Source: Arthrobacter bambusae
GTDB taxonomy: Bacteria; Actinomycetota; Actinomycetes; Actinomycetales; Micrococcaceae
Direction of reading: 5' to 3'
NCBI RefSeq assembly: GCF_030812595.1
Contig: NZ_JAUSSZ010000002.1
Location: 62,001-126,000 of the forward strand
DNA length: 64,000 nucleotides
The notes below the pieces were generated by a model, which was not told where the DNA came from, made no database searches, and saw only the letters and a list, made by a program, of their open reading frames with translations. The position numbers and the translations under genes are program-made. This document shows, in pieces, positions 6,920-61,764 of the stretch (its first letter is position 1; every line of letters starts with the position of its first letter).

Positions 6920-7306
6920 CTACGCGCTCAGCTCCGCCCGGAGGGGGTATTCCTTGCTGTCCAGGAGAAGCTGTGTGCAACGCCCGGTGTCCGGGTTCAA
7001 GACGATAGGGGCCGCGAGGTTGACCGTGGTCTTTTCAAGGGTCGGATTGACCACCACCAGCGTGGTTGCCGGTTGGGTGCCCTGCAGGCCCAGATCCTCG
7101 AGTGTCGAGTCGGGGATGGCCGGGGCGTAATCCGGAACATAGACGGAGGCGTCGGCCAGGAACATCCGGATGCGGGGGCTTGCCGACTCCATCGCGTAGA
7201 GTCCGGGGGCGCCGTCGATTCCCCGCAAGGCGAATCCCTCCGCGGCTTCCAGGCCGGGCATCGGCGCGGTGAAGCTCAGCTCACGGGATGCTTGCGCCGG
7301 GCTCAT
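6920..7306 (-). CDS. fliW: Flagellar assembly factor FliW
   Basis: 128 residues, slightly shorter than the usual 140-150. Matches FliW through FTAPMPGLEAAEGFALR near the N-terminus, LYAMESASPRIRMFLADASVYVPDY, and the C-terminal VVVNPTLEKTTVNLAAPIVLN. FliW binds free flagellin and antagonises CsrA, so that flagellin translation follows filament export. It is last in the minus-strand operon flgN-flgK-flgL-fliW and overlaps the flgL stop by four bases (ATGA). The partner csrA lies at 59.9 kb and its likely target, the fliC leader, at 10.4 kb. Confidence 0.92.
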   Translation of the reverse strand: MSPAQASRELSFTAPMPGLEAAEGFALRGIDGAPGLYAMESASPRIRMFLADASVYVPDYAPAIPDSTLEDLGLQGTQPATTLVVVNPTLEKTTVNLAAPIVLNPDTGRCTQLLLDSKEYPLRAELSA

Positions 7307-9682: not shown

Positions 9683-10183
9683 TCAGATTTTCTGGTCGAA
9701 AAAGCGGGACCGGGCCGATTCCGCCGTGCTGCCTTGGGAGCTTGTCCGGCCGTGGGAGTCGTAGGTCCCGGCGGCGGGCTTCAGGTCCGCCATGGTTTCC
9801 TGCGTGGAGCGGACAGCCGCGCGCAAGAACTGATCGTTTGAATCACGCAGTTGCTTGATGGTGGCAGTTTGCTGCTGCATGGCATTCAGGTGCGAGGACA
9901 GAACGTCAGCCCAGGCCTCTTCCGGGGCGGATGAAGCCAGTTCGCCCAGTGAACACTCGGCAGGCAGGCCCCATTGCTCCGCCACCGCGGCCACTTCCAC
10001 TGCCCTCGCAAGGCCTGCCTTGGACAGATGTTCCAGTACCTGCTCCACTTCGCGTGTGCCGTGCGGCAACCAGCGGGATTTGCCCGCCGTGAGGAGCAGT
10101 TGTTCTTCCTCCAGCTTGAACGTCAGCAAATCCAGCAGCTCACGTTCTCGCCACAGCAGGGCCGACAGTTCATGGATGGCCAT
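9683..10183 (-). CDS. flgN: FlgN-family flagellar export chaperone (copy 1)
   Basis: 166 residues, largely helical. ELSALLWRERELLDLLTFKLEEEQLLL followed by a polar helical region (AVAEQWGLP, LRDSNDQFLRAAVRSTQETM) matches FlgN, the cytoplasmic chaperone of FlgK and FlgL. It is first in the flgN-flgK-flgL-fliW operon. A sigma-28-type promoter lies about 85 bases upstream of the ATG, and a GGAG Shine-Dalgarno precedes the start. A paralogue with the same opening motif lies at 60.2 kb. Confidence 0.88.
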   Translation of the reverse strand: MAIHELSALLWRERELLDLLTFKLEEEQLLLTAGKSRWLPHGTREVEQVLEHLSKAGLARAVEVAAVAEQWGLPAECSLGELASSAPEEAWADVLSSHLNAMQQQTATIKQLRDSNDQFLRAAVRSTQETMADLKPAAGTYDSHGRTSSQGSTAESARSRFFDQKI

Positions 10184-10387: not shown

Positions 10388-10414
10388 TAACCACCGGCTT
10401 CCCCGTTCCGATAA
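10388..10414 (+). promoter_or_regulatory. Sigma-28-type promoter for flagellin
   Basis: -35 TAACCACC (10388-10395), 11-base spacer, -10 TCCGATAA (10407-10414). It is divergent from the flgN promoter. A transcript starting near 10420 would have a leader of about 58 bases that opens with the CsrA-like hairpin. Confidence 0.78.
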
Positions 10415-10424
10415 TCAAAAGTGA

Positions 10425-10471
10425 CAGGCCACGGATGGCCTGGAAGCAGTACCGGACCCAATCACGGAGGA
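10425..10471 (+). promoter_or_regulatory. Flagellin mRNA leader with two CsrA-type binding sites
   Basis: A perfect six-base-pair stem CAGGCC (10425-10430) / GGCCTG (10437-10442) presents the hexaloop ACGGAT, matching the ANGGAN loop recognised by CsrA. A second site, ACGGAG (10464-10469), forms the Shine-Dalgarno GGAGGA seven bases before the ATG. Two further GGA triplets (10442 and 10454) lie between. Together with csrA and fliW in the same window this indicates translational control of flagellin. Confidence 0.72.
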
Positions 10472-10478
10472 ATACACC

Positions 10479-11366
10479 ATGGGCATGGCAATCAACACAA
10501 ACCTGATGGCGAACAACGCCTACCGCAACCTCAGCAACACCCAGAACGACGTGGCCAGCTCGATGCAGAAGCTTTCCAGCGGTCTGCGCATCAACAGTGC
10601 AGCTGATGACGCTGCCGGCCTGACCATCTCCGAAGGCCTCAAGTCCCAGGTTTCCGGTTCTGCCGTTGCAGCCCGCAACGCCCAGGACGGCATCTCGGTC
10701 ATCCAGACCACGGAAGGCGCACTCGGCGAAGTCACCTCGATCCTGCAGCGCATGCGCGACCTTGCCGTGCAGGGCTCGTCTGACACGAACAACGCCAATG
10801 CGCGTGCAGCCATCAAGACCGAAGGCGACTCCCTCGGCAAGGAGCTGGACCGCCTCACCCAGGGTACGAACTTCAACGGCATCGACCTGCTCAAGGGCAA
10901 CACCGGCACCGGCGTTTCCGCCACCGGCACCCTGAGCATCCAGGTCGGCACCGGCAGCACCGCCAGCGACAAGATCGACATCAAGGTCGGCGACGTGGCC
11001 ACGGCGGTCGGCAACCTGTCCGGCGCAGCCGGGGCCACCGACTTCAACGTCACCGACACGGTGGCCGGCGACGGTACGGCTAGCGCAAACGCTCAGGCGA
11101 CGATCGCCAAGATCGACACGGCGATCAAGAACGTCACCACCCAGCAGGCAGGTCTGGGTGCCACCCAGAACCGCCTGCAGCACGCGATCAACACCCTGAA
11201 CGTCTCCGGTGAGAACCTGCAGGCCGCACAGTCCCACATCACCGACGTCGACATGGCTCAGGAAATGGTCAAGTTCACCAAGGCCAACATCCTGCAGCAG
11301 GCCGGTACGGCCATGCTGGCCCAGGCCAACCAGTCCGGCCAGGGTGTCCTCAAGCTCCTCGGCTAA
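10479..11366 (+). CDS. fliC: Flagellin
   Basis: 295-residue filament subunit. The conserved N-terminal coiled coil runs MAINTNLMANNAYRNLSNTQ through SSGLRINSAADDAAGLTISE. The C-terminal coiled coil runs NRLQHAINTLNVSGENLQAAQSHITDVDMAQEMVKFTKANIL to NQSGQGVLKLLG. The central region (about residues 140-210) is short, so the filament has a small outer domain. The start has a strong GGAGGA Shine-Dalgarno, and a second ATG two codons later is possible. It is followed by a large stem-loop before fliD, consistent with an abundant message. Confidence 0.97.
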   Translation: MGMAINTNLMANNAYRNLSNTQNDVASSMQKLSSGLRINSAADDAAGLTISEGLKSQVSGSAVAARNAQDGISVIQTTEGALGEVTSILQRMRDLAVQGSSDTNNANARAAIKTEGDSLGKELDRLTQGTNFNGIDLLKGNTGTGVSATGTLSIQVGTGSTASDKIDIKVGDVATAVGNLSGAAGATDFNVTDTVAGDGTASANAQATIAKIDTAIKNVTTQQAGLGATQNRLQHAINTLNVSGENLQAAQSHITDVDMAQEMVKFTKANILQQAGTAMLAQANQSGQGVLKLLG

Positions 11367-47632: not shown

Positions 47633-48460
47633 ATGGATCCCTCGACAATAATCGGCCTGTTCCTGGCGTTCGGCTCGGTTGTGGCCATGGTGACCCTCGA
47701 AGACGCCAACCTCATGGCCCTCCTGCTTCCCGCGCCCATGGTCCTGGTCTTCGGCGCCACCTTGGCCGTGGGCCTGGCCGGGAACACATTCCGCGATACC
47801 CTCCGGGCGTTCAAAGACCTCCCCAAGGCGTTCAAGGGAAAGACCGACAAGCCGCAGGAAAGCATCGACCAACTGATCGGCTTTGCCGAGAAGGCGCGGA
47901 GCGAGGGCCTCCTCTCCCTCGAAGAGGCAGCCACGGAGGAGAAGGATCCCTTCCTGGCCCGCGCCCTGCAGAACATCGCCGACGGCACGGACGCCGAGGA
48001 GCTGCGCATCCTCATGGAAGACGAGATCGACTCCAAGATGCGCAGCGACCACGTCTCTGCCAAATTCTTCGCCAGCCTGGGCGGCTACGCGCCGACCATC
48101 GGCATTATCGGCACAGTGGTATCCCTGACCCACGTCCTTGAGAACCTCTCTTCCCCCGATCACCTGGGGCCGATGATCGCCTCCGCTTTCGTGGCGACCC
48201 TCTGGGGTTTGTTGTCCGCGAACTTCATCTGGCTGCCGTTCAGCTCGAGGCTCAAGCGGCTGTCCGAGCTCGAGATCGAACGCATGACCCTCCTGATGGA
48301 AGGCATATTGGCGGTCCAGAACGGGACCCAGCCCCTCCTGCTCGCCGAGCGGCTTCGCGCCATGGTTCCCCCGGACAGGCTCGGCAAGGCGAAAACGGCA
48401 ACAAAGAACGACGACGACGATGCCCGCCCCGGCAAATTCGCTTCGTCCAAGGCCGCATGA
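47633..48460 (+). CDS. motA: Flagellar stator protein MotA
   Basis: 275 residues, four membrane helices. The torque loop FAEKARSEGLLSLEEAA carries the Arg/Glu pair that faces FliG. Channel helices are GYAPTIGIIGTVVSLTHVLENL and MIASAFVATLWGLLSANFIWLP. It overlaps motB by four bases. With MotB it forms the ion-driven stator. Confidence 0.96.
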   Translation: MDPSTIIGLFLAFGSVVAMVTLEDANLMALLLPAPMVLVFGATLAVGLAGNTFRDTLRAFKDLPKAFKGKTDKPQESIDQLIGFAEKARSEGLLSLEEAATEEKDPFLARALQNIADGTDAEELRILMEDEIDSKMRSDHVSAKFFASLGGYAPTIGIIGTVVSLTHVLENLSSPDHLGPMIASAFVATLWGLLSANFIWLPFSSRLKRLSELEIERMTLLMEGILAVQNGTQPLLLAERLRAMVPPDRLGKAKTATKNDDDDARPGKFASSKAA

Positions 48461-49254
48461 GGTCCAGGCGCCGCCGCAGTTCACCTCCGGCGGAAGAACA
48501 CGTCGACGAACGCTGGATGGCTTCCTACATGGATATGGTCACGGTGCTCATGTGTATGTTCATCGTGCTCTTTGCAATGTCCACGGTGGACCAGGCCAAA
48601 TTCGACAAACTCCGCAATTCGCTGGCCACGGGTTTCGGCGCGGTGGTCAGCCAGAAGGTGGACACCGCCACCGGGACGGTCGTTCCTCCGGAATACACAA
48701 ACGCCGACGCCCAGGGATTCTCCAACCTGGACCTCGCACTCAAGGAAGCGGACCGGCTCACCGCTTTGCGGGACGAGATGAAATCGAAGCTCGACGCCGC
48801 GGGGCTGGGGGCCAATGTGCAGTTCCAGATCAACGAACGCGGACTCACCGTGAAACTCGTAGGATCCCAGACCTTCTTCGAACCCGACCGGCCTGAGCTC
48901 ACGTCCCGCGCGAGCCAGGTCCTTGGCATGATCGGTCCGACCATGGCCAAGGCGGCCCTTGAAATCATGGTGGAAGGCCACGCCGCCAACGGGATCACCT
49001 CGTACCCCTCCACGTGGGAGCTGTCTTCGGCGCGCTCCGTCAACGTCCTCAGGTACCTCGTCGACCATGAAGGCATTTCGGCAGGGCACATCGGCGCCGT
49101 CGCGTTCGGATCCGCCCGGCAGGTCAACGACGATTCCACCGAGGCCCTGATGGAGCTCAACCGCAGGGTCGACGTCGTCGTCCTCTCGGATAAGCCCGAA
49201 GTCGTCCGCGCCCTGATCCCAGAGGCACTCAAAGCGAGGGCCGGCGGCCACTAG
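48457..49254 (+). CDS. motB: Flagellar stator protein MotB
   Basis: 265 residues. A basic N-terminus, then the plug/membrane helix WMASYMDMVTVLMCMFIVLFAMS with the ion-binding Asp26. The C-terminal OmpA-like peptidoglycan-binding domain is LEIMVEGHAANG, WELSSARSVNVLRYLVDHEGI, HIGAVAFGSARQ, NRRVDVVVL. It anchors the stator to the cell wall. No fliL follows; the next gene is a non-flagellar AraC-type regulator. Confidence 0.96.
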   Translation: MRSRRRRSSPPAEEHVDERWMASYMDMVTVLMCMFIVLFAMSTVDQAKFDKLRNSLATGFGAVVSQKVDTATGTVVPPEYTNADAQGFSNLDLALKEADRLTALRDEMKSKLDAAGLGANVQFQINERGLTVKLVGSQTFFEPDRPELTSRASQVLGMIGPTMAKAALEIMVEGHAANGITSYPSTWELSSARSVNVLRYLVDHEGISAGHIGAVAFGSARQVNDDSTEALMELNRRVDVVVLSDKPEVVRALIPEALKARAGGH

Positions 49255-49335
49255 GGCGGCGAGCTTGCTCCGGGCGGTGGCGGGGCGGCGTCGGAATCCG
49301 TGGAAATGGCCGGCGTGCCGAGGTACCCTCGTGGC

Positions 49336-49776
49336 ATGACCCCGGAAGACATCGCCAGGCTCACGTACCTGCGCCGGGCCCGCGACCTAATCGACCGCGA
49401 GTACGCCAAGCCCCTCGACGTACCCACCATGGCCAGCCATGCCTTCATGTCGCCGGCGCACTTCTCGCGCCAGTTCCGCGCGGCCTACGGGGAGACACCT
49501 TACAACTACCTCATGACCCGCCGCATCGAGCGCGCGATGGCGCTCCTGCGCGCAGGAATGACTGTGACCGACGCGTGCATGGAGGTCGGTTGTACGTCAC
49601 TTGGCTCCTTCAGTTCGCGTTTCACCGAACTCGTGGGCGTGCCTCCGAGCACATACCGCGCACGCGAGCACTTGGCCGTGGTTGCCATGCCGGCGTGCGT
49701 GGCGAAGATACGCACCCGGCCCACCCGGAGCGAAGCGAACAAGCGTCGGGAGGCGCTCGCTGTCGCCGCGGACTGA
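49336..49776 (+). CDS. AraC-family HTH regulator (DNA-binding domain only)
   Basis: 146 residues. Tandem helix-turn-helix: LDVPTMASHAFMSPAHFSRQFRAAYGETPYNYLMTRRIERAMALLRAG and VTDACMEVGCTSLGSFSSRFTELVGVPPSTYR. There is no N-terminal sensing domain. Small regulators of this type often neighbour a VOC/glyoxalase gene; here a VOC gene lies 1.4 kb downstream, separated by a molybdate pair. A start at 49300 would add 12 residues. Confidence 0.88.
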   Translation: MTPEDIARLTYLRRARDLIDREYAKPLDVPTMASHAFMSPAHFSRQFRAAYGETPYNYLMTRRIERAMALLRAGMTVTDACMEVGCTSLGSFSSRFTELVGVPPSTYRAREHLAVVAMPACVAKIRTRPTRSEANKRREALAVAAD

Positions 49777-49857: not shown

Positions 49858-50268
49858 ATGCCCAATATTCGCGTATCTGAAGCAGCCCGGTTCCTGGGCG
49901 TCAGTGACGACACCGTCCGGCGCTGGACCGAGAACGGCACCCTGACGCCGGTCAAGGATGATTCCGGCCGTCTGGCGGTGGATGGGCTGGAGCTTGCCCA
50001 CGTCGCGCGGGACCAGGCCCAGTTGCCTGAGGATCCCACCCGGGTGGGCCGCTCGGCACGCAACCGCTTCGTCGGACTGGTTACCGGCATCACCGCCGAC
50101 AAGGTCATGGCCCAGGTGGAACTGCAGTGCGGTCCCTTCCGCGTCGTATCGCTCATGAGCACCGAGGCCGTCCGGGAACTCGGGCTCGAACTCGGCTCGG
50201 TCGCCACAGCCGTGGTCAAGGCAACCACGGTCATCATCGAAACACCCCAGGGAAAGAGCACCATATGA
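49858..50268 (+). CDS. MerR-type HTH + molybdate-binding (Mop/TOBE) protein
   Basis: 136 residues. N-terminal excisionase-like HTH (RVSEAARFLGVSDDTVRRWTENGTLTPVKDDSGRLAVDG) joined to one Mop domain (RNRFVGLVTGITADKVMAQVELQCGPFRVVSLMSTEAVRELGLELGSVATAVVKATTVIIE). Molbindin-type storage or sensing of molybdate is expected; the HTH suggests a molybdate-responsive regulator. It overlaps modA (ATGA). Confidence 0.92.
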   Translation: MPNIRVSEAARFLGVSDDTVRRWTENGTLTPVKDDSGRLAVDGLELAHVARDQAQLPEDPTRVGRSARNRFVGLVTGITADKVMAQVELQCGPFRVVSLMSTEAVRELGLELGSVATAVVKATTVIIETPQGKSTI

Positions 50269-51077
50269 GGATCACCCGCACGCGTGTCGCCGCGCTGCTC
50301 GTTGCCGGCGCCCTCGCGGCCGGCACCACCGGCTGCGGTACGGGCAGCCCCGCGGGCACCGCGAGCAGCGGATCGGCCAGCGCCAGCGAAACGCCAAGGC
50401 TCACCGGTACAGTGACGGTTTACGCGGCTGCCTCGCTGAAGGCGACGTTCACCAAGCTGGCCGGCGAATTCGAGGCCACGAACCCGGGCACCAAAGTCGC
50501 CCTGAGCTTCGCAGGGTCTTCAGACCTTGTCACGCAGATCACCCAGGGCGCGCCGGCGGACGTCTTCGCCTCGGCAGATACGAAGAACATGGCCAAGCTC
50601 TCTGACGCCAACCTGCTCGACGGACCGGCCAAGAACTTCGCCACCAACGTCCTGAGCATTGCCGTCCCGCCGTCCAATCCGGCGTCCATCCGTTCCTTCG
50701 CGGACCTGGCCAAGCCGGGGGTCAAGGTGGTTGTGTGCGCCAGCCAAGTACCCTGCGGCTCCGCAGCCCAGACCATCGAAAAGGCCACCGGCACGGTCCT
50801 CAAACCGGTTAGTGAGGAGTCTTCCGTGACTGATGTCCTGGGCAAGGTCGCCTCCGGGGAAGCGGACGCCGGACTCGTCTACGTCACCGACGTCAAGGGC
50901 GCCGGGGATAAGGTCAAGGGAATCGCTTTCGCCGAGTCGGACAAGGCTGTCAACACCTACCCGATCGGCACCGTCGGCACCAGCAAGAACAAGGATCTGG
51001 CCGCCGCCTTCATCGCTTTGGTGACGGGAAGCGAAGGCAGGAAAGTTCTCGGCGACGCCGGTTTCGGAACGCCATAA
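50265..51077 (+). CDS. modA: Molybdate-binding lipoprotein ModA
   Basis: 270 residues. Lipoprotein signal VAALLVAGALAAGTTGCG. ModA features: TVYAAASLKATFTKLAGEFEATNPG, SFAGSSDLVTQITQGAPADVFASAD, and EADAGLVYVTDV. It captures molybdate for an ABC importer. modB and modC are absent downstream; instead a 20-bp tandem duplication begins within its last codons and a VOC gene follows. The importer components may lie elsewhere or have been lost. Confidence 0.93.
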   Translation: MRITRTRVAALLVAGALAAGTTGCGTGSPAGTASSGSASASETPRLTGTVTVYAAASLKATFTKLAGEFEATNPGTKVALSFAGSSDLVTQITQGAPADVFASADTKNMAKLSDANLLDGPAKNFATNVLSIAVPPSNPASIRSFADLAKPGVKVVVCASQVPCGSAAQTIEKATGTVLKPVSEESSVTDVLGKVASGEADAGLVYVTDVKGAGDKVKGIAFAESDKAVNTYPIGTVGTSKNKDLAAAFIALVTGSEGRKVLGDAGFGTP

Positions 51078-51638: not shown

Positions 51639-51665
51639 TTACGCCCGCACTTTCGTTGCCGATAG
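51639..51665 (+). promoter_or_regulatory. Sigma-28-type promoter for fliM-csrA operon
   Basis: -35 TTACGCCC (51639-51646), 11-base spacer, -10 GCCGATAG (51658-51665). The -10 ends eight bases before the fliM GTG, so transcription would begin at or next to the start codon. Confidence 0.72.
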
Positions 51666-53343: not shown

Positions 53344-53847
53344 ATGGATTCGCTCATCCTCGGGCTGCGCGTGCTGGTGGCCCTGGGTGCGGTGCTGGGA
53401 CTCATTTGGGTACTGCAGCGCCGTCTTCTCAAAGGCAAAGCCAAAGGCCGACGCCGGGCCAACACGACCCTGACGGTGGTCAGCCGGCAGGCTGTCGGCC
53501 AAAAGGCCTCTGTGGTGGTGGTCGACGCCGGTGACAAGCGCTTCCTGCTGGGCGTCACCGAGCACGCCATCAACGTCCTGCACAGCGGGGACGTGCCGAT
53601 GGAACTTCCGGAAAGCACGACGGCGGAGGCACCTGAGAGCTTCGCGGACATCTTCCGCGACGCCGGTGGCACGCCGCTTCCCGACAACATGCCCCCAGCC
53701 GCCGCACTCCAAGGCAGCGGACTCACCCGCCGCAGCGAGATCCACCGACGCAGCGGGCTGGACAAAGCCCAGCCCATGCACGGTTCCATCCTTGCCGGTT
53801 CCACTTGGCGGCAGGCTGCCGAGGCCATCAGGGGACGCCGGAATTGA
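53344..53847 (+). CDS. fliO: Flagellar biosynthesis protein FliO
   Basis: 167 residues with a single N-terminal membrane helix (LRVLVALGAVLGLIWVLQRRLL) followed by the FliO domain (TLTVVSRQAVGQKASVVVVDAGDKRFLLGVTEHAINVLHSG). The last 70 residues are polar and probably disordered. FliO helps assemble the FliP ring and lies directly upstream of fliP. Confidence 0.92.
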   Translation: MDSLILGLRVLVALGAVLGLIWVLQRRLLKGKAKGRRRANTTLTVVSRQAVGQKASVVVVDAGDKRFLLGVTEHAINVLHSGDVPMELPESTTAEAPESFADIFRDAGGTPLPDNMPPAAALQGSGLTRRSEIHRRSGLDKAQPMHGSILAGSTWRQAAEAIRGRRN

Positions 53848-56937: not shown

Positions 56938-58986
56938 ATGAACAACAGATCCGCCAGGCTCACCGTGCCGGTGGGAATCGTGGGCATCGTGCTGCTGCTG
57001 GTGGTTCCCGTTCCGGCGCCGCTGCTGGACTTCCTGATCGTCTGCAACATCCTGCTCGCCCTGTTGGTCCTGCTCACCAGCATGTTCGTCAAGAAGCCCC
57101 TGGATTTCTCCGTCTTCCCGTCCTTGCTCCTCGTGGCTACGCTGTTCCGCCTGGGGCTCAACGTCGCATCCACCCGACTGGTGCTGGGGCAAGGATTCGC
57201 CGGCCAAGTGATCGACGCGTTCGGCAAGGTCACTGTGGGCGGCTCCATGATCATCGGGGCCGTGGTGTTCCTGATCCTGGTGGTCATCCAGTTCGTCGTG
57301 GTCACCAAAGGCGCCGAACGCGTGGCCGAGGTGGGGGCACGGTTCACCCTGGATGCCATGCCCGGCAAGCAAATGGCCATCGACGCAGACCTCAACGCCG
57401 GCCTCATCACGGACGCCCAGGCCCGCAAGCGCCGCGCGGAAGTGTCCGCCGAGGCGGACTTTTACGGCGCCATGGACGGTGCCTCGAAGTTCGTCAAGGG
57501 CGATGCGATCGCGGGCATCATCATTATCATCATCAACTTCGTTGGCGGCATTGCCATCGGCGTGCTGCAGCGCGGCATGAATGTTGGCGATGCCCTGAAC
57601 TCCTTTGGCCTGCTGACGATGGGCGATGGGCTCGTCACCCAGATCCCGGCCCTCCTCATGGCCGTGTCCACGGGTATGATCGTCACCCGGTCCAACGCCG
57701 AGGAAGACATGGGCCGCACGGCCTCGTCGCAGCTCATGCAGTCGCCCAATGCCTTGCTGATTGCGGGAGTAGCCGCGGCGGCCATGGCCCTCATCCCCGG
57801 CATGCCCATCCTGCCGTTCCTGCTGGTAGGCGCCCTTTTGCTGATCGCTTCCAGGCGACTCGCGGCGCAGCAGAAGAAGCAGCTCGAGATTGAGGACGCC
57901 GAGGAAGCTGCCACCCAACGGTCCGAAGAAGACCCCAACGAGCGGCTCATGCAGGACATGCGCGTCCACCCCGTCGAGATCCTGTTGGCGCCGGACCTGG
58001 TGGACATGGTCTCCGGCGCCTCGGACGACCTGCTGGCCCGTGTCCGTTCCCTGCGCCACAAGATCGCCATGGAGCTGGGGATCGTGATTCCGCCCGTCCG
58101 CACCCGCGACAACGTCGAGCTGCCCCCGGCCACCTATGCCATCCGGATTGCCGGTGTGGAAGCGGGACGCGGCACGGCGCCGTCGGGCAGGCTGCTTGCC
58201 CTCGGTGATTACCTCGACGCGCTGCCCGGTACGTCCACGGTGGAACCGGTCTTCGGGCTTGCCGGAAAATGGATTCCAGCCGAGATGCGCCACAGTGCGG
58301 AAATGACCGGGGCAACCGTGATCGACCGGGTTTCGGTGCTGGTGACCCACTTGTCGTCGATTGTCACCGCCAACGCCGCAAGGCTCCTCACCCGCGAGGA
58401 CGTCAGGGTTCTGACGGAAGGCTTGCGCAAGCAGAGCCCTGCCGCCGTCGAGGAACTCATCCCCGGGCTGATGTCCCTTGCCGAGGTGCAGCGCGTGCTA
58501 CAGGGCCTCCTTGAAGAACAGGTCCCCATCAACGATCTTCCGCGCATTTACGAAGCACTCGCCCTGAGGGCCAAGGTTTCCACCGAGCCCGAGGGCCTGA
58601 TCGAAACCGCCCGGCAGTCCCTGGGACCAGCGCTCGCAGCCAAGTTCCTGGACGGCACGGTGCTCAACGTGGTCATGATCGATCCGCTCCTGGAACAGTC
58701 CATGCTCGAGGACATGCGACCGGCCGAAGGGGGTACCCAGATCGTCATGAACCAAGCTCGCTTGGACGCCGTCCTGGCCTCCGTACAGACGTCGGTGGAG
58801 GCCGCAGCCAATGCAGGACGGCAAGCCGTCCTGGTCTGCGCTCCGGCGCTCCGGCCGGCGGTCCGGCGTCTCGTGGCAGCTGCCGACGGCGGTGTTCCCG
58901 TGTTGTCCTACCGCGAAGTGACGTCCGCAAACATCCAGATCGAAACCGTGGGGGTGGTCCGCCATGCCGAAGCAATACAGTCCTAG
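56938..58986 (+). CDS. flhA: Flagellar export gate protein FlhA
   Basis: 682 residues. Eight membrane helices in the first 310 residues, the FHIPEP-like loop (ERVAEVGARFTLDAMPGKQMAIDADLNAGLI, EADFYGAMDGASKFVKGDAIAG), then a cytoplasmic domain with DRVSVLVTHLSSIVTANAARLLTREDV and EELIPGLMSLAEVQRVLQGLL. It forms the nonameric docking ring for chaperone-substrate complexes. It overlaps the next gene by 23 bases. Confidence 0.97.
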   Translation: MNNRSARLTVPVGIVGIVLLLVVPVPAPLLDFLIVCNILLALLVLLTSMFVKKPLDFSVFPSLLLVATLFRLGLNVASTRLVLGQGFAGQVIDAFGKVTVGGSMIIGAVVFLILVVIQFVVVTKGAERVAEVGARFTLDAMPGKQMAIDADLNAGLITDAQARKRRAEVSAEADFYGAMDGASKFVKGDAIAGIIIIIINFVGGIAIGVLQRGMNVGDALNSFGLLTMGDGLVTQIPALLMAVSTGMIVTRSNAEEDMGRTASSQLMQSPNALLIAGVAAAAMALIPGMPILPFLLVGALLLIASRRLAAQQKKQLEIEDAEEAATQRSEEDPNERLMQDMRVHPVEILLAPDLVDMVSGASDDLLARVRSLRHKIAMELGIVIPPVRTRDNVELPPATYAIRIAGVEAGRGTAPSGRLLALGDYLDALPGTSTVEPVFGLAGKWIPAEMRHSAEMTGATVIDRVSVLVTHLSSIVTANAARLLTREDVRVLTEGLRKQSPAAVEELIPGLMSLAEVQRVLQGLLEEQVPINDLPRIYEALALRAKVSTEPEGLIETARQSLGPALAAKFLDGTVLNVVMIDPLLEQSMLEDMRPAEGGTQIVMNQARLDAVLASVQTSVEAAANAGRQAVLVCAPALRPAVRRLVAAADGGVPVLSYREVTSANIQIETVGVVRHAEAIQS

Positions 58987-59890
58987 ATACCAGCTCAAAG
59001 GCGCATCCCTGGAGGCCATCCGGGTGAAGGCCGAGCAGCAGTACGGTCCCGGGGCGCGCATCGTCTCGGCCGAGAAAGTCACCAATCCGGGGATCGCCGG
59101 GCTCTTCGCGGCAAACCGCTACGAGGCCACCATCGAGGTCCCGGCAGGTGGCACAAGCCTCATCCCAGGCGGCCCTGCGCACGCTTTGCAGGGACCCGCC
59201 ATCGCCGCGCTCCTGGAGCAAGCCGACGCGGCCGAGATGGACCTGCACCGGCCCTCCGAAGGTGTGTCCGCCGCAGTTGTTTCAACTGCCTCCCCGGATT
59301 TCGCCGGGATGTTGGAGCAGCTAGGAAAGGAGTTCGAAGCGCCGGGCTCCGCCGTCGGGCACGCTGTTCCAGTGCCGGTACCTGTTCCGCTAGCCGGCAG
59401 CGGCAACCTCATCATCGTGGTTGGCCTGGGCGACGCCGCTTTGGGACCGGCACTGGACATGTCCATCGCTGAGGGCGGTTCCGACGTGCGGACAGCCGGA
59501 GCGTTGACCGCTTTCGGGCACCTTCACGTGGCGGGGCGCCAGGGCGCGACTGCGGCGCGAGCCCAAGCCGTGCTCACCGGCCAAACCGTGCTGGTGGCCT
59601 ATGGGCTCGGCAGGCCGGGCGAAGCCGCGACGCATGCGGCGGCCATCGCGGCCCTGGCCCCGGACCAGTTGTGGCTCGCTGCTGACGCCGGACGGAAGGC
59701 CGAAGACACTGCGGCATGGGTACGGGCGCTGACTACCGCGCTGGCCGCCGAGCGTGTCCTCGTTGATGCCCTTGCTGTTTTCGGCGCGTCGGAGACCGGA
59801 AGTCCCGAGACGGTCAACGGACTCGGCCTCCCCATCGGGTGGGTGGACGGCAAGCCAGCCCGCGTTGCAGTGCTCGGAAAGGTAGATTGA
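58964..59890 (+). CDS. FlhF-like protein lacking the GTPase P-loop
   Basis: 308 residues. The N-terminus matches the FlhF leader domain (YQLKGASLEAIRVKAEQQYGPGARIVSAEKV). After a linker, the SRP-GTPase-like region begins at 148 (NLIIVVGLGDAALGPALD), where a GxxGxGKTT P-loop should be; Gly-Lys-Thr is missing. Later strands survive: LWLAADAGRKAED, and VFGASETGSPETVNGLGLPIGWVDGKPA, which aligns with the TKLDETGS...LPI..VTDGQ end of FlhF. It sits in the flhF position between flhA and csrA. GTP binding is probably lost; a placement scaffold role is inferred. Confidence 0.78.
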   Translation: MPKQYSPRYQLKGASLEAIRVKAEQQYGPGARIVSAEKVTNPGIAGLFAANRYEATIEVPAGGTSLIPGGPAHALQGPAIAALLEQADAAEMDLHRPSEGVSAAVVSTASPDFAGMLEQLGKEFEAPGSAVGHAVPVPVPVPLAGSGNLIIVVGLGDAALGPALDMSIAEGGSDVRTAGALTAFGHLHVAGRQGATAARAQAVLTGQTVLVAYGLGRPGEAATHAAAIAALAPDQLWLAADAGRKAEDTAAWVRALTTALAAERVLVDALAVFGASETGSPETVNGLGLPIGWVDGKPARVAVLGKVD

Positions 59891-59894
59891 GGGG

Positions 59895-60143
59895 ATGCTG
59901 GTACTGACACGCAAGCCGGGCGAACAGATCATGATTGGTGAGGACATAGTCATCACCGTCATGGAAGGCCGCGGCGACGGCGTGCGGATCGGGATCGAGG
60001 CGCCCCGCGGCGTGTCCATCCAGCGTCGCGAAGTCGTTGAGGCGATCGCCGCGGCCAACCTCGCTGCTGCCCAGGCCGGCCCCGATGCCGAGGAGCTCGT
60101 TGCCGGGCTGCGCCCGCCTGTCCGGCAGCCACGCAAGGAGTAG
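59895..60143 (+). CDS. csrA: Carbon storage regulator CsrA
   Basis: 82 residues, about 20 longer than E. coli CsrA through a C-terminal tail (PDAEELVAGLRPPVRQPRKE). Core MLVLTRKPGEQIMIGEDIVITVMEGRGDGVRIGIEAPRGVSIQRREVVEAI keeps the L-TRK N-terminus and the RNA-contacting Arg in VSIQRREV. As a dimer it binds GGA motifs in mRNA leaders. Likely target is the fliC leader; antagonist FliW is at 6.9 kb. Four bases after the flhF-like gene. Confidence 0.96.
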   Translation: MLVLTRKPGEQIMIGEDIVITVMEGRGDGVRIGIEAPRGVSIQRREVVEAIAAANLAAAQAGPDAEELVAGLRPPVRQPRKE

Positions 60144-60152
60144 GCCCGGCTT

Positions 60153-60755
60153 CTAAGCCAGGCCCAGGAACTCCGCGAGGAGAGGCAGGGAGCAATCCCT
60201 CGTCACGGCCAGGGCCCGCTCAATATTGGCGTTTTCCGTCAGGAACGCAACGTCATCCACCGCGCCGGCACGCGCGAGCGTTCCCGGTGACGCCGTGGCG
60301 ATATTGTCGCTCGGCTGCACTGGGCCGGGCTCCGGGTTCCCGGCGTCTTGAGGCGCCAGCTGGAGAGCGTTGACGTTGGCGGCCGCTGCCGTTTCGACCT
60401 GCTTGAACAACAGGACGAGTTCACGGTGGTGTTCCTGGAGCAATTCCGGCCAGACTCCGGGAGGGGCCACTGAGGCGATCTTCGGCAAGGTGGCGTTCGC
60501 GGACAGGCACCATTCGATGGCCAAGGCCGAGGACTCGATGTTCCGGGCGAGCGTGTCGAACCGCAGGTTCTCCAGTGCCTTTTCCACGTCGGCGGCGGTG
60601 AATTTGAGCCAATGCCAATTGCCTGCCCGAACGTGCAGCAGCTGTGTTTCGAGCCGGTACAACAGCAGTTCCAGCTGTCTCCGCTCGCGCCACAGCGTCG
60701 CCGATAGCTCGTCCGCCCCCACGGTTCCCCATTCCCCGCGTGGCCTGCGGAACAT
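60153..60755 (-). CDS. Second FlgN-family chaperone-like protein
   Basis: 200 residues from the first ATG; a GTG at 60722 with GGGGAA upstream (VGADELSATLWRERRQLELLLYRLETQLL) may be the true start, giving 189. It shares the opening ELSAxLWRER-LLxLLxxxLE pattern and overall helical plan with the flgN at 9.7 kb but has diverged elsewhere. It is convergent with csrA and divergent from fliA. Possible roles are a chaperone for another exported substrate or a partner of a regulator. Confidence 0.8.
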   Translation of the reverse strand: MFRRPRGEWGTVGADELSATLWRERRQLELLLYRLETQLLHVRAGNWHWLKFTAADVEKALENLRFDTLARNIESSALAIEWCLSANATLPKIASVAPPGVWPELLQEHHRELVLLFKQVETAAAANVNALQLAPQDAGNPEPGPVQPSDNIATASPGTLARAGAVDDVAFLTENANIERALAVTRDCSLPLLAEFLGLA

Positions 60756-60945: not shown

Positions 60946-61764
60946 TTGAATCGCGAAGAACGCAACGAGCTTGTGCTGCAGCACCTGCCGCTCGTTGGCT
61001 ATTTGGTATCGGAGCTCTGCGCGAGAGCTTCTCATTTGTCACGCGACGATTTCGCATCGGTAGGGTCCTTGGCGTTGATAACGTCCGCAGACTCCTTCGA
61101 TCCGGCCCTCGGAGTCCCCTTTGGCGCATTTGCGCGTCGGCGGATCGTCGGAGCCTTTGCGGACGAGATGCGGGCCAGCGACTGGGCCACACGATCTGCC
61201 CGCAAACGCATCAAAGAAACCATGTCGGTCCAGGAAACGCTCTCCGGTGTCCTTGGCCGTACTCCTTCGGTCGCCGAAACCGCGTCAGCCTTGGGCGTCG
61301 AACGCAGTGTGGTGGAAGCCGCCCTGGCCGATGCGGCACGGACGCTCTCACCGCTGGACGACGTCGTCGTGGACACCGTCGCCGCCGATACGATCTCTCC
61401 GGAGCACTCAGTCCTGGCTGATGAGCGGCTCAAGTACCTCCGCGCCGCGGTCGAGGCCCTGCCCGAGAAGATGCGTTACGTCGTCGAGGAGGTCTATTTC
61501 GCGGGGCGGACCGTCAAGGAGCTCGCCGAGGAACTCGGTTCCACGCACGCGGCGGTCTCCCAGCAGCGTGCCGAGGGCATCCGCCTCATGCGGGACGGAC
61601 TGTCCGCCCATTACGCGGACGATCCCGAGCAATCCTTCGAGCCCCAGTCGCGCATTACTGCCCGACGCCGGCACGACTACCTTTCGACGCTTGCCACAGC
61701 GACTTTGGGCGGAATCACCCGTACTTTCAGCTCCCCGGATGCTGCCTTGAACCGCGCTGTCTAG
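60946..61764 (+). CDS. fliA: Sigma-28 family sigma factor (FliA/WhiG type)
   Basis: 272 residues, TTG start six bases after GGGGGGA. Region 2: HLPLVGYLVSELCARASHLSRDDFASVGSLALITSADSFDPALGVPFGAFARRRIVGAFADEMRASDW. Region 3: TMSVQETLSGVLGRTPSVAETASALGV. Region 4: ALPEKMRYVVEEVYFAGRTVKELAEELGSTHAAVSQQRAEGIRLMRDGL. It lacks region 1.1, as expected. A C-terminal tail of about 55 residues follows region 4. The five sigma-28-type sites in this window are its likely targets. No flgM anti-sigma gene is seen. Confidence 0.93.
   Translation: MNREERNELVLQHLPLVGYLVSELCARASHLSRDDFASVGSLALITSADSFDPALGVPFGAFARRRIVGAFADEMRASDWATRSARKRIKETMSVQETLSGVLGRTPSVAETASALGVERSVVEAALADAARTLSPLDDVVVDTVAADTISPEHSVLADERLKYLRAAVEALPEKMRYVVEEVYFAGRTVKELAEELGSTHAAVSQQRAEGIRLMRDGLSAHYADDPEQSFEPQSRITARRRHDYLSTLATATLGGITRTFSSPDAALNRAV

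Follow-up and report, generated by a model that had tools for sequence, protein, structure and literature searches.

The window, by which we mean the whole stretch of 64,000 nucleotides of Arthrobacter DNA that was analysed, carries a block of flagellar genes in which a flagellin gene is accompanied by fliW and csrA (Table 1). When the genome was searched with the flagellin, the sole other match was the flgL gene. Among named records, the flagellin is 98% identical to one assigned to Arthrobacter bambusae.

Table 1. Features of the window that bear on the flagellin leader and its predicted regulators
Feature	Position	Strand	Details
fliW, predicted CsrA antagonist and flagellin sensor	6920-7306	-	PF02623, 77.9 bits
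Sigma-28-type promoter of the flagellin gene	10388-10414	+	TAAC-N15-TCCGATAA
Predicted CsrA site 1, RNA hairpin	10425-10442	+	stem CAGGCC/GGCCTG, hexaloop ACGGAT, core CANGGANG
Predicted CsrA site 2, overlapping the Shine-Dalgarno sequence (ACGGAGG)	10464-10469	+	ACGGAG; ATG at 10479
Flagellin gene, predicted regulated gene	10479-11366	+	295 aa; PF00669 and PF00700
csrA, predicted translational repressor	59895-60143	+	82 aa; PF02599, 85 bits
Sigma factor gene	60946-61764	+	best model FliA/WhiG, 118 bits, under the 189.6-bit cut-off

The fliW start codon overlaps the stop codon of flgL (ATGA), so that fliW stands last in the row flgN-flgK-flgL-fliW, and the best match of its product among solved structures is FliW (5dmb_A). 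The csrA product finds its best solved match in 5dmb_D, with an alignment that extends to residue 63, and it scores slightly under the cut-offs of the NCBIfam csrA models (72.1 of 73 and 68.3 of 70.1 bits). Residues L4, R44 and N55 are kept in all 21 CsrA proteins that were compared, namely that of the window and 20 sampled from the order's 75 genomes with CsrA; the change N55D presumably disrupts the contact with FliW. L4 and R44 are residues through which CsrA contacts RNA (PMC7652899), and both a csrA N55D allele and CsrA heterodimers with one FliW site are on record in the literature.

An initial annotation of this DNA had put fliW at the start of the flagellar block and csrA at its far end, and both placements hold, although the block also contains many non-flagellar genes. 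Among the frames that were scanned between about 25000 and 51100, the block is split by an arylsulfotransferase, a GntR regulator, a cytosine-purine permease, a DUF222-HNH protein and an ABC transporter with a solute-binding protein; MotB (48457-49254) is separated from FliO (53344-53847) by an AraC-type frame (49300-49776) and another solute-binding protein (50127-51077). The distance from flagellin to csrA is 49 kb in the window and 26 kb in another genome of the same genus (G566). The csrA gene lies behind flhA and a 308-aa frame (58964-59890, plus strand) with no NCBIfam match and a marginal Pfam match to ChpA-C (22.5 bits), and the FliA/WhiG-like sigma gene lies just beyond it. Between csrA and that sigma gene, a 200-aa frame on the minus strand (60153-60755) shares 44% identity with FlgN (9683-10183) across 94 residues and seems to encode a second FlgN-like protein.

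The promoter of the flagellin gene is likely read by the FliA/WhiG-like sigma factor. Transcription would start near 10420-10424, which would place the hairpin at the 5' end of the mRNA. A hairpin with a perfect 6-bp stem displaying ACGGAT had been described here, and the sequence confirms it: CAGGCC (10425-10430) and GGCCTG (10437-10442) form six perfect Watson-Crick pairs around the loop (10431-10436). When the 18-mer is folded by itself it reaches -10.8 kcal/mol (z -3.56, with 2 of 200 shuffles as good), and the A and U of the loop close as a seventh pair. The full leader is of ordinary stability (z -0.66, with 50 of 200 shuffles as good), and a single folded sequence is therefore unconvincing by itself. 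Rfam covariance models gave no match at gathering scores over the window, and their only two matches over the leader fell far under those scores (E 0.14 and 2.6). A model built for the hairpin (R1), run over the window, gave the flagellin leader 30.4 bits and the next site 15.3. Two further GGA had been noticed between the hairpin and the Shine-Dalgarno sequence, and both are present (10442-10444 and 10454-10456), but neither fits ANGGA, their sequences being CTGGA and CCGGA, and neither is conserved; they were rejected as further CsrA sites. Some leaders, L005 among them, have no GGA at all between their two sites.

The hairpin gains its weight from comparison. For a first set of leaders, the flagellin protein was used to find 328 relatives in named genome records, and the best 80, representing the near end of the family, were kept; together with the window they provide 81 leaders, or 68 non-redundant ones after 13 that were at least 90% identical to another had been dropped. 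A strict hairpin, defined as A-N-GGA-N enclosed by 4 or more consecutive base pairs, is present in 77 of these 81 leaders (the window and the best 80 of the 328) and in 64 of the 68 non-redundant ones, where 300 rounds of dinucleotide shuffling gave a mean of 0.68 and a maximum of 4. That the hairpin is a chance resemblance in one genome, as the z of -0.66 for the full leader might have led one to think, is refuted by these counts. In the second set, 69 genomes of the same order, eight of them with several flagellin copies, supply 89 leaders. Under nearly the same rule 74 of the 89 carry the hairpin; the other 15 fail the requirement for an uninterrupted stem. Over both sets there are 19 exceptions, 18 of which have one mismatch in eight pairs and one of which (L197) has three pairs only. 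The core CANGGANG is found at -30 to -80 in all 170 leaders (the window, the best 80 of the 328 named loci and the 89 of the order), a tally in which the named and order sets may have species in common. With five more genomes and the window, leaders were read for 75 of the order's 76 flagellin genomes, the remaining one (G444) having a C-terminal flagellin fragment only. The comparison thus gives strong support to the view that the hairpin of one genome is a conserved RNA element.

In a sample of the whole phylum, 27 of 48 leaders show the strict hairpin, where 0.65 would be expected. The order itself contributes five of the 48, every one with the hairpin, which leaves 22 of 43 outside it. Several of the phylum leaders that lack it have the Shine-Dalgarno site only, at times in a local hairpin of its own. 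The count of 48 omits a duplicate (L112) and the leaders of 7 of the 56 flagellin-bearing phylum genomes. Six of these seven were read individually: the hairpin is present in four (G020, G046, G058 and G169) and absent from G009, and in G186 the only ANGGA hairpin is 77 nt upstream, with no promoter-proximal hairpin. The flagellin start of the seventh (G333) could not be located. Some leaders are more elaborate than that of the window. In six from Microbacterium (L022, L029, L031, L032, L033 and L035) an extra inverted repeat with AGGA in its loop is sited between the conserved hairpin and the Shine-Dalgarno sequence, as folded for L022, and the leader L085 has tandem hairpins, each with the loop ACGGAC, which together with an ACGGAG Shine-Dalgarno sequence make three ANGGA sites.

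The pattern of change among the 68 aligned hairpins bears on whether the element acts as RNA or as DNA. The invariant columns are G6, C9, A10, G12, G13, A14, G16 and G17; this leaves the loop and the pairs that close it frozen, with a stem mostly free to vary. Covariation was judged by five measures. Over nine pairs, 86.2% of cells are paired in the 54 distinct rows, 109 cells are changed on both sides, a count that none of 500 shuffles reached (43 +/- 5), and the pairing falls to 24-47% when the partner strand is slid. Two of the five measures are indistinct from shuffles, namely the number of pairs with two-sided change (6 compared to 5.8, with 418 of 500 shuffles as high) and the number of further pair types (26 compared to 23.1, with 34 of 500 as high). 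On a flagellin tree (FastTree, 124 tips), parsimony places 65 two-sided replacements of one pair by another, spread over seven pairs; controls with slid pairing give 0-9, and 42 pair-breaking changes are inferred on the same tree.

An inverted repeat just behind a promoter could work in transcription as a DNA element, either an operator or a piece of the sigma-28 promoter, and the hairpin indeed keeps a nearly fixed distance from the -10 element: in 80 of 81 leaders (the window and the best 80 of the 328 named) its loop C is 16-18 nt downstream. A dimeric DNA-binding protein would keep its half-sites, however, and here the arms change together and the single-stranded loop is fixed. Because the arms covary around a fixed loop, the element is better described as an RNA stem showing a protein-recognised loop than as a DNA operator. 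A sigma-28-type pattern, composed after inspection of the leaders, is found in 81 of 81 of them (again the window and the best 80 of the 328 named loci), with a shuffle rate of 0.5%. Under a stricter promoter pattern, the hairpin accompanies 43 of 44 flagellin promoters and none of the 83 sigma-28-like sites found elsewhere in these loci, which argues that it is not part of the sigma-28 promoter. A DNA-level role is thus most improbable. Two of the strict sites without a hairpin lie in the window, at 10295-10269 (minus strand) and at 51639 (plus strand), and the former would drive flgN-flgK-flgL-fliW.

The Shine-Dalgarno sequence had itself been proposed as the second site, and the ACGGAG is borne out, with the A at -2 of GGAGG emerging as a trait of flagellin genes. 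Among frames picked out mechanically for a GGAGG suitably far from the start, 76 of 76 flagellin genes have this A; of the other such frames in these loci that are 150 codons or longer, 16 of 116 do. An A-N-GGA is present at the Shine-Dalgarno sequence in 166 of the 170 leaders and missing from 4. In the window this site has just two local pairs (UC/GA). A CCCA/UGGG stem around the Shine-Dalgarno sequence, to which RNA folds had pointed, was rejected, having been found in 126 of 150 distinct leaders, after exclusion of those lacking A-N-GGA at this position, against 117 expected by chance. Outside the order (L088, L106, L109 and others) the Shine-Dalgarno sequence often lies in a hexaloop hairpin of its own, for example GATTC AAGGAG GAATC, which is nearer to the Campylobacter layout.

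Hairpins at the 5' terminus often protect mRNAs, and the hairpin might then be a plain stabiliser, or a ribosome standby site whose loop GGA could look like a Shine-Dalgarno sequence, in either case with no specific protein and with an ordinary strong Shine-Dalgarno sequence downstream. A stabiliser would have no need of an invariant ANGGA loop, however, nor an ordinary Shine-Dalgarno sequence of the A at -2 that sets flagellin genes apart from their neighbours. The near-perfect co-occurrence with csrA in the order also speaks against this explanation, which we consider very unlikely. Among the 248 genomes of the order, 76 have a flagellin and 75 a CsrA match; 74 have both, two have flagellin only and one has CsrA only. 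In the two flagellin-only genomes (G418 and G499) csrA is unmatched and the leader is kept, and since each assembly is in more than 500 contigs, an assembly gap is likely. The CsrA-only genome (G583, L245) has csrA with flagellin undetected and shares its genus label with a flagellated genome; either the flagellin was missed or it was lost recently.

Across 396 genomes of the phylum, 56 have a flagellin match, 80 a CsrA match and 55 both, and a CsrA match is present in 25 of the 340 genomes without a flagellin match; outside the order, therefore, CsrA is not strictly tied to detected flagellin. The single flagellin-bearing genome of the 56 without a CsrA match (G186) has a weak flagellin match (34%) and no ANGGA at its Shine-Dalgarno sequence, the comparison of CsrA loss having little power. 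FliW is present in 54 of the 56. Of the two with no FliW match, one (G301) also lacks the two-site layout, and the other (G211) has the Shine-Dalgarno site and lacks the upstream hairpin.

Taken together, these results make it highly likely that the flagellin leader is a two-site CsrA target, part of a CsrA-FliW-flagellin switch such as operates in B. subtilis and C. jejuni. The two-site layout put forward in the initial annotation is borne out by the covariation, by the invariant CANGGANG loop and the CsrA-type Shine-Dalgarno sequence, and further by the specificity for flagellin, the co-occurrence with csrA and the conservation of the RNA-binding and FliW-contact residues of CsrA. By analogy with Bacillus and Campylobacter, the switch would work as follows. 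The sigma-28-type promoter would give rise to a leader of an estimated 55-60 nt, whose 5' end would fold into the hairpin with its ANGGAN hexaloop. One CsrA dimer would then place one surface on the loop and the other on the ANGGA of the Shine-Dalgarno sequence 33 nt downstream, and the ribosome would be blocked. As long as flagellin is exported, FliW would be free to engage CsrA at its C-terminal extension and relieve the repression; flagellin that accumulates inside the cell would sequester FliW, and CsrA would repress again. The spacing between the two GGA is 33 nt in the window and 21-48 nt across the 166 leaders (of 170) that have the Shine-Dalgarno site, all of which falls inside the range of 10-63 nt that one CsrA dimer bridges (PMC7652899).

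CsrA might also bind the leader with a different main effect, either on the stability of the mRNA or through an abundant leader that titrates CsrA as a sponge. There are precedents for both: CsrA also limits the level of the hag transcript in B. subtilis (PMC6529632), and the flaA leader of C. jejuni titrates CsrA (PMC4894983). A sponge needs other targets, however, and such targets were sought among hairpin-bearing sequences. No hairpin accompanies any of the 83 other sigma-28-like sites mentioned above, and in a genome search with R1, in which 150 of 4575 first-look candidates were scored and at least 16 matches were obtained up to E 10, the three other high-scoring matches (L208, L209 and L210, at 30.2, 26.7 and 24.3 bits) lie inside long reading frames. 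These frames may encode a MoeA, a PTS component and a regulator, and the three matches were treated as chance rather than as CsrA targets; the E-values of the R1 model are judged too generous. We regard a main effect on stability or by titration as unlikely, though it is by far the most serious competitor of the translational switch; effects on mRNA stability may in any case coexist with a translational block.

If the leader is a CsrA target, its CsrA need not be a global regulator. In the order csrA and flagella occur almost strictly together: csrA is matched in 74 of the 76 genomes with flagellin, and flagellin in 74 of the 75 with csrA. An origin of CsrA as a flagellin-specific regulator thereby becomes testable; this strict pairing is the most interesting opening that the analysis provides. 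It is possible, with a chance somewhat short of even, that CsrA in this order serves flagellin alone, being acquired and lost together with the flagellum as one unit and having the leader as its only dedicated target. The CsrA matches in flagellin-less genomes of the phylum count against this idea, as does the fact that targets were sought with the hairpin model only. Were it true, the two-site leader could be an ancestral module of the phylum and flagellin control the original job of CsrA; it has been suggested that CsrA-FliW may have controlled flagella before acquiring other roles (PMC4894983).

Several elements of the leader have close counterparts in known systems. The ANGGAN hexaloop is a high-affinity shape for CsrA/RsmE (PMC7652899), and the consensus given for CsrA, CANGGANG (PMC4894983), is identical to the frozen core of the flagellin hairpins. 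That control by CsrA extends to actinobacterial flagellin is not a new idea: it was proposed in 2008 for Kineococcus radiotolerans from a 9/12 match to the hag BS2 (Shine-Dalgarno) site, in an actinobacterium whose csrA, as in the window, lies in a motility island, and csrA was found close to flagellar genes in three other actinobacteria (PMC2587704). The proposal in that paper rests on the Shine-Dalgarno site, and its passages on csrA contain no hairpin, FliW, covariation or leader survey (PMC2587704). Actinobacteria have been listed among the phyla that may use FliW (PMC4682653), and in the main text of a survey of actinobacterial flagella CsrA and FliW are each named a single time, among the genes listed in the methods (PMC10746217). 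Among the matches listed from open-access PubMed Central, no earlier description of the leader hairpin was found. The leader adds a predicted RNA target of CsrA, backed by covariation, in Actinobacteria, for which those matches include only the short proposal of 2008.

The initial annotation had compared the layout with that of the Bacillus hag leader; flaA of Campylobacter jejuni is equally close. The hag leader of B. subtilis resembles that of the window in having two CsrA sites, one of them on the Shine-Dalgarno sequence, and in the presence of FliW. The regulator genes are arranged otherwise: the overlap of fliW with csrA that goes with coupled translation in B. subtilis is absent from the window, where fliW overlaps flgL and csrA lies 52.6 kb away. 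The B. subtilis device for setting the ratio of FliW to CsrA is therefore missing, and another one must take its place. The positions of the two genes suggest that CsrA may be produced at an early stage along with the export gate, and FliW at a late one, together with the hook-filament junction proteins. The flaA leader of C. jejuni shares with the window a 5' stem-loop with an ANGGA hexaloop, a following ANGGA on the ribosome site, compensatory changes, the CANGGANG consensus and FliW as antagonist (PMC4894983). It differs in that its Shine-Dalgarno site lies in a stem-loop of its own with a GGA spacing of 21 nt, whereas the site in the window appears nearly unpaired and the spacing is 33 nt, and titration of CsrA has been demonstrated in Campylobacter and is not indicated in the Arthrobacter window. 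Very probably, then, the CsrA feedback known from Bacillus and Campylobacter also runs the flagella of actinobacteria.
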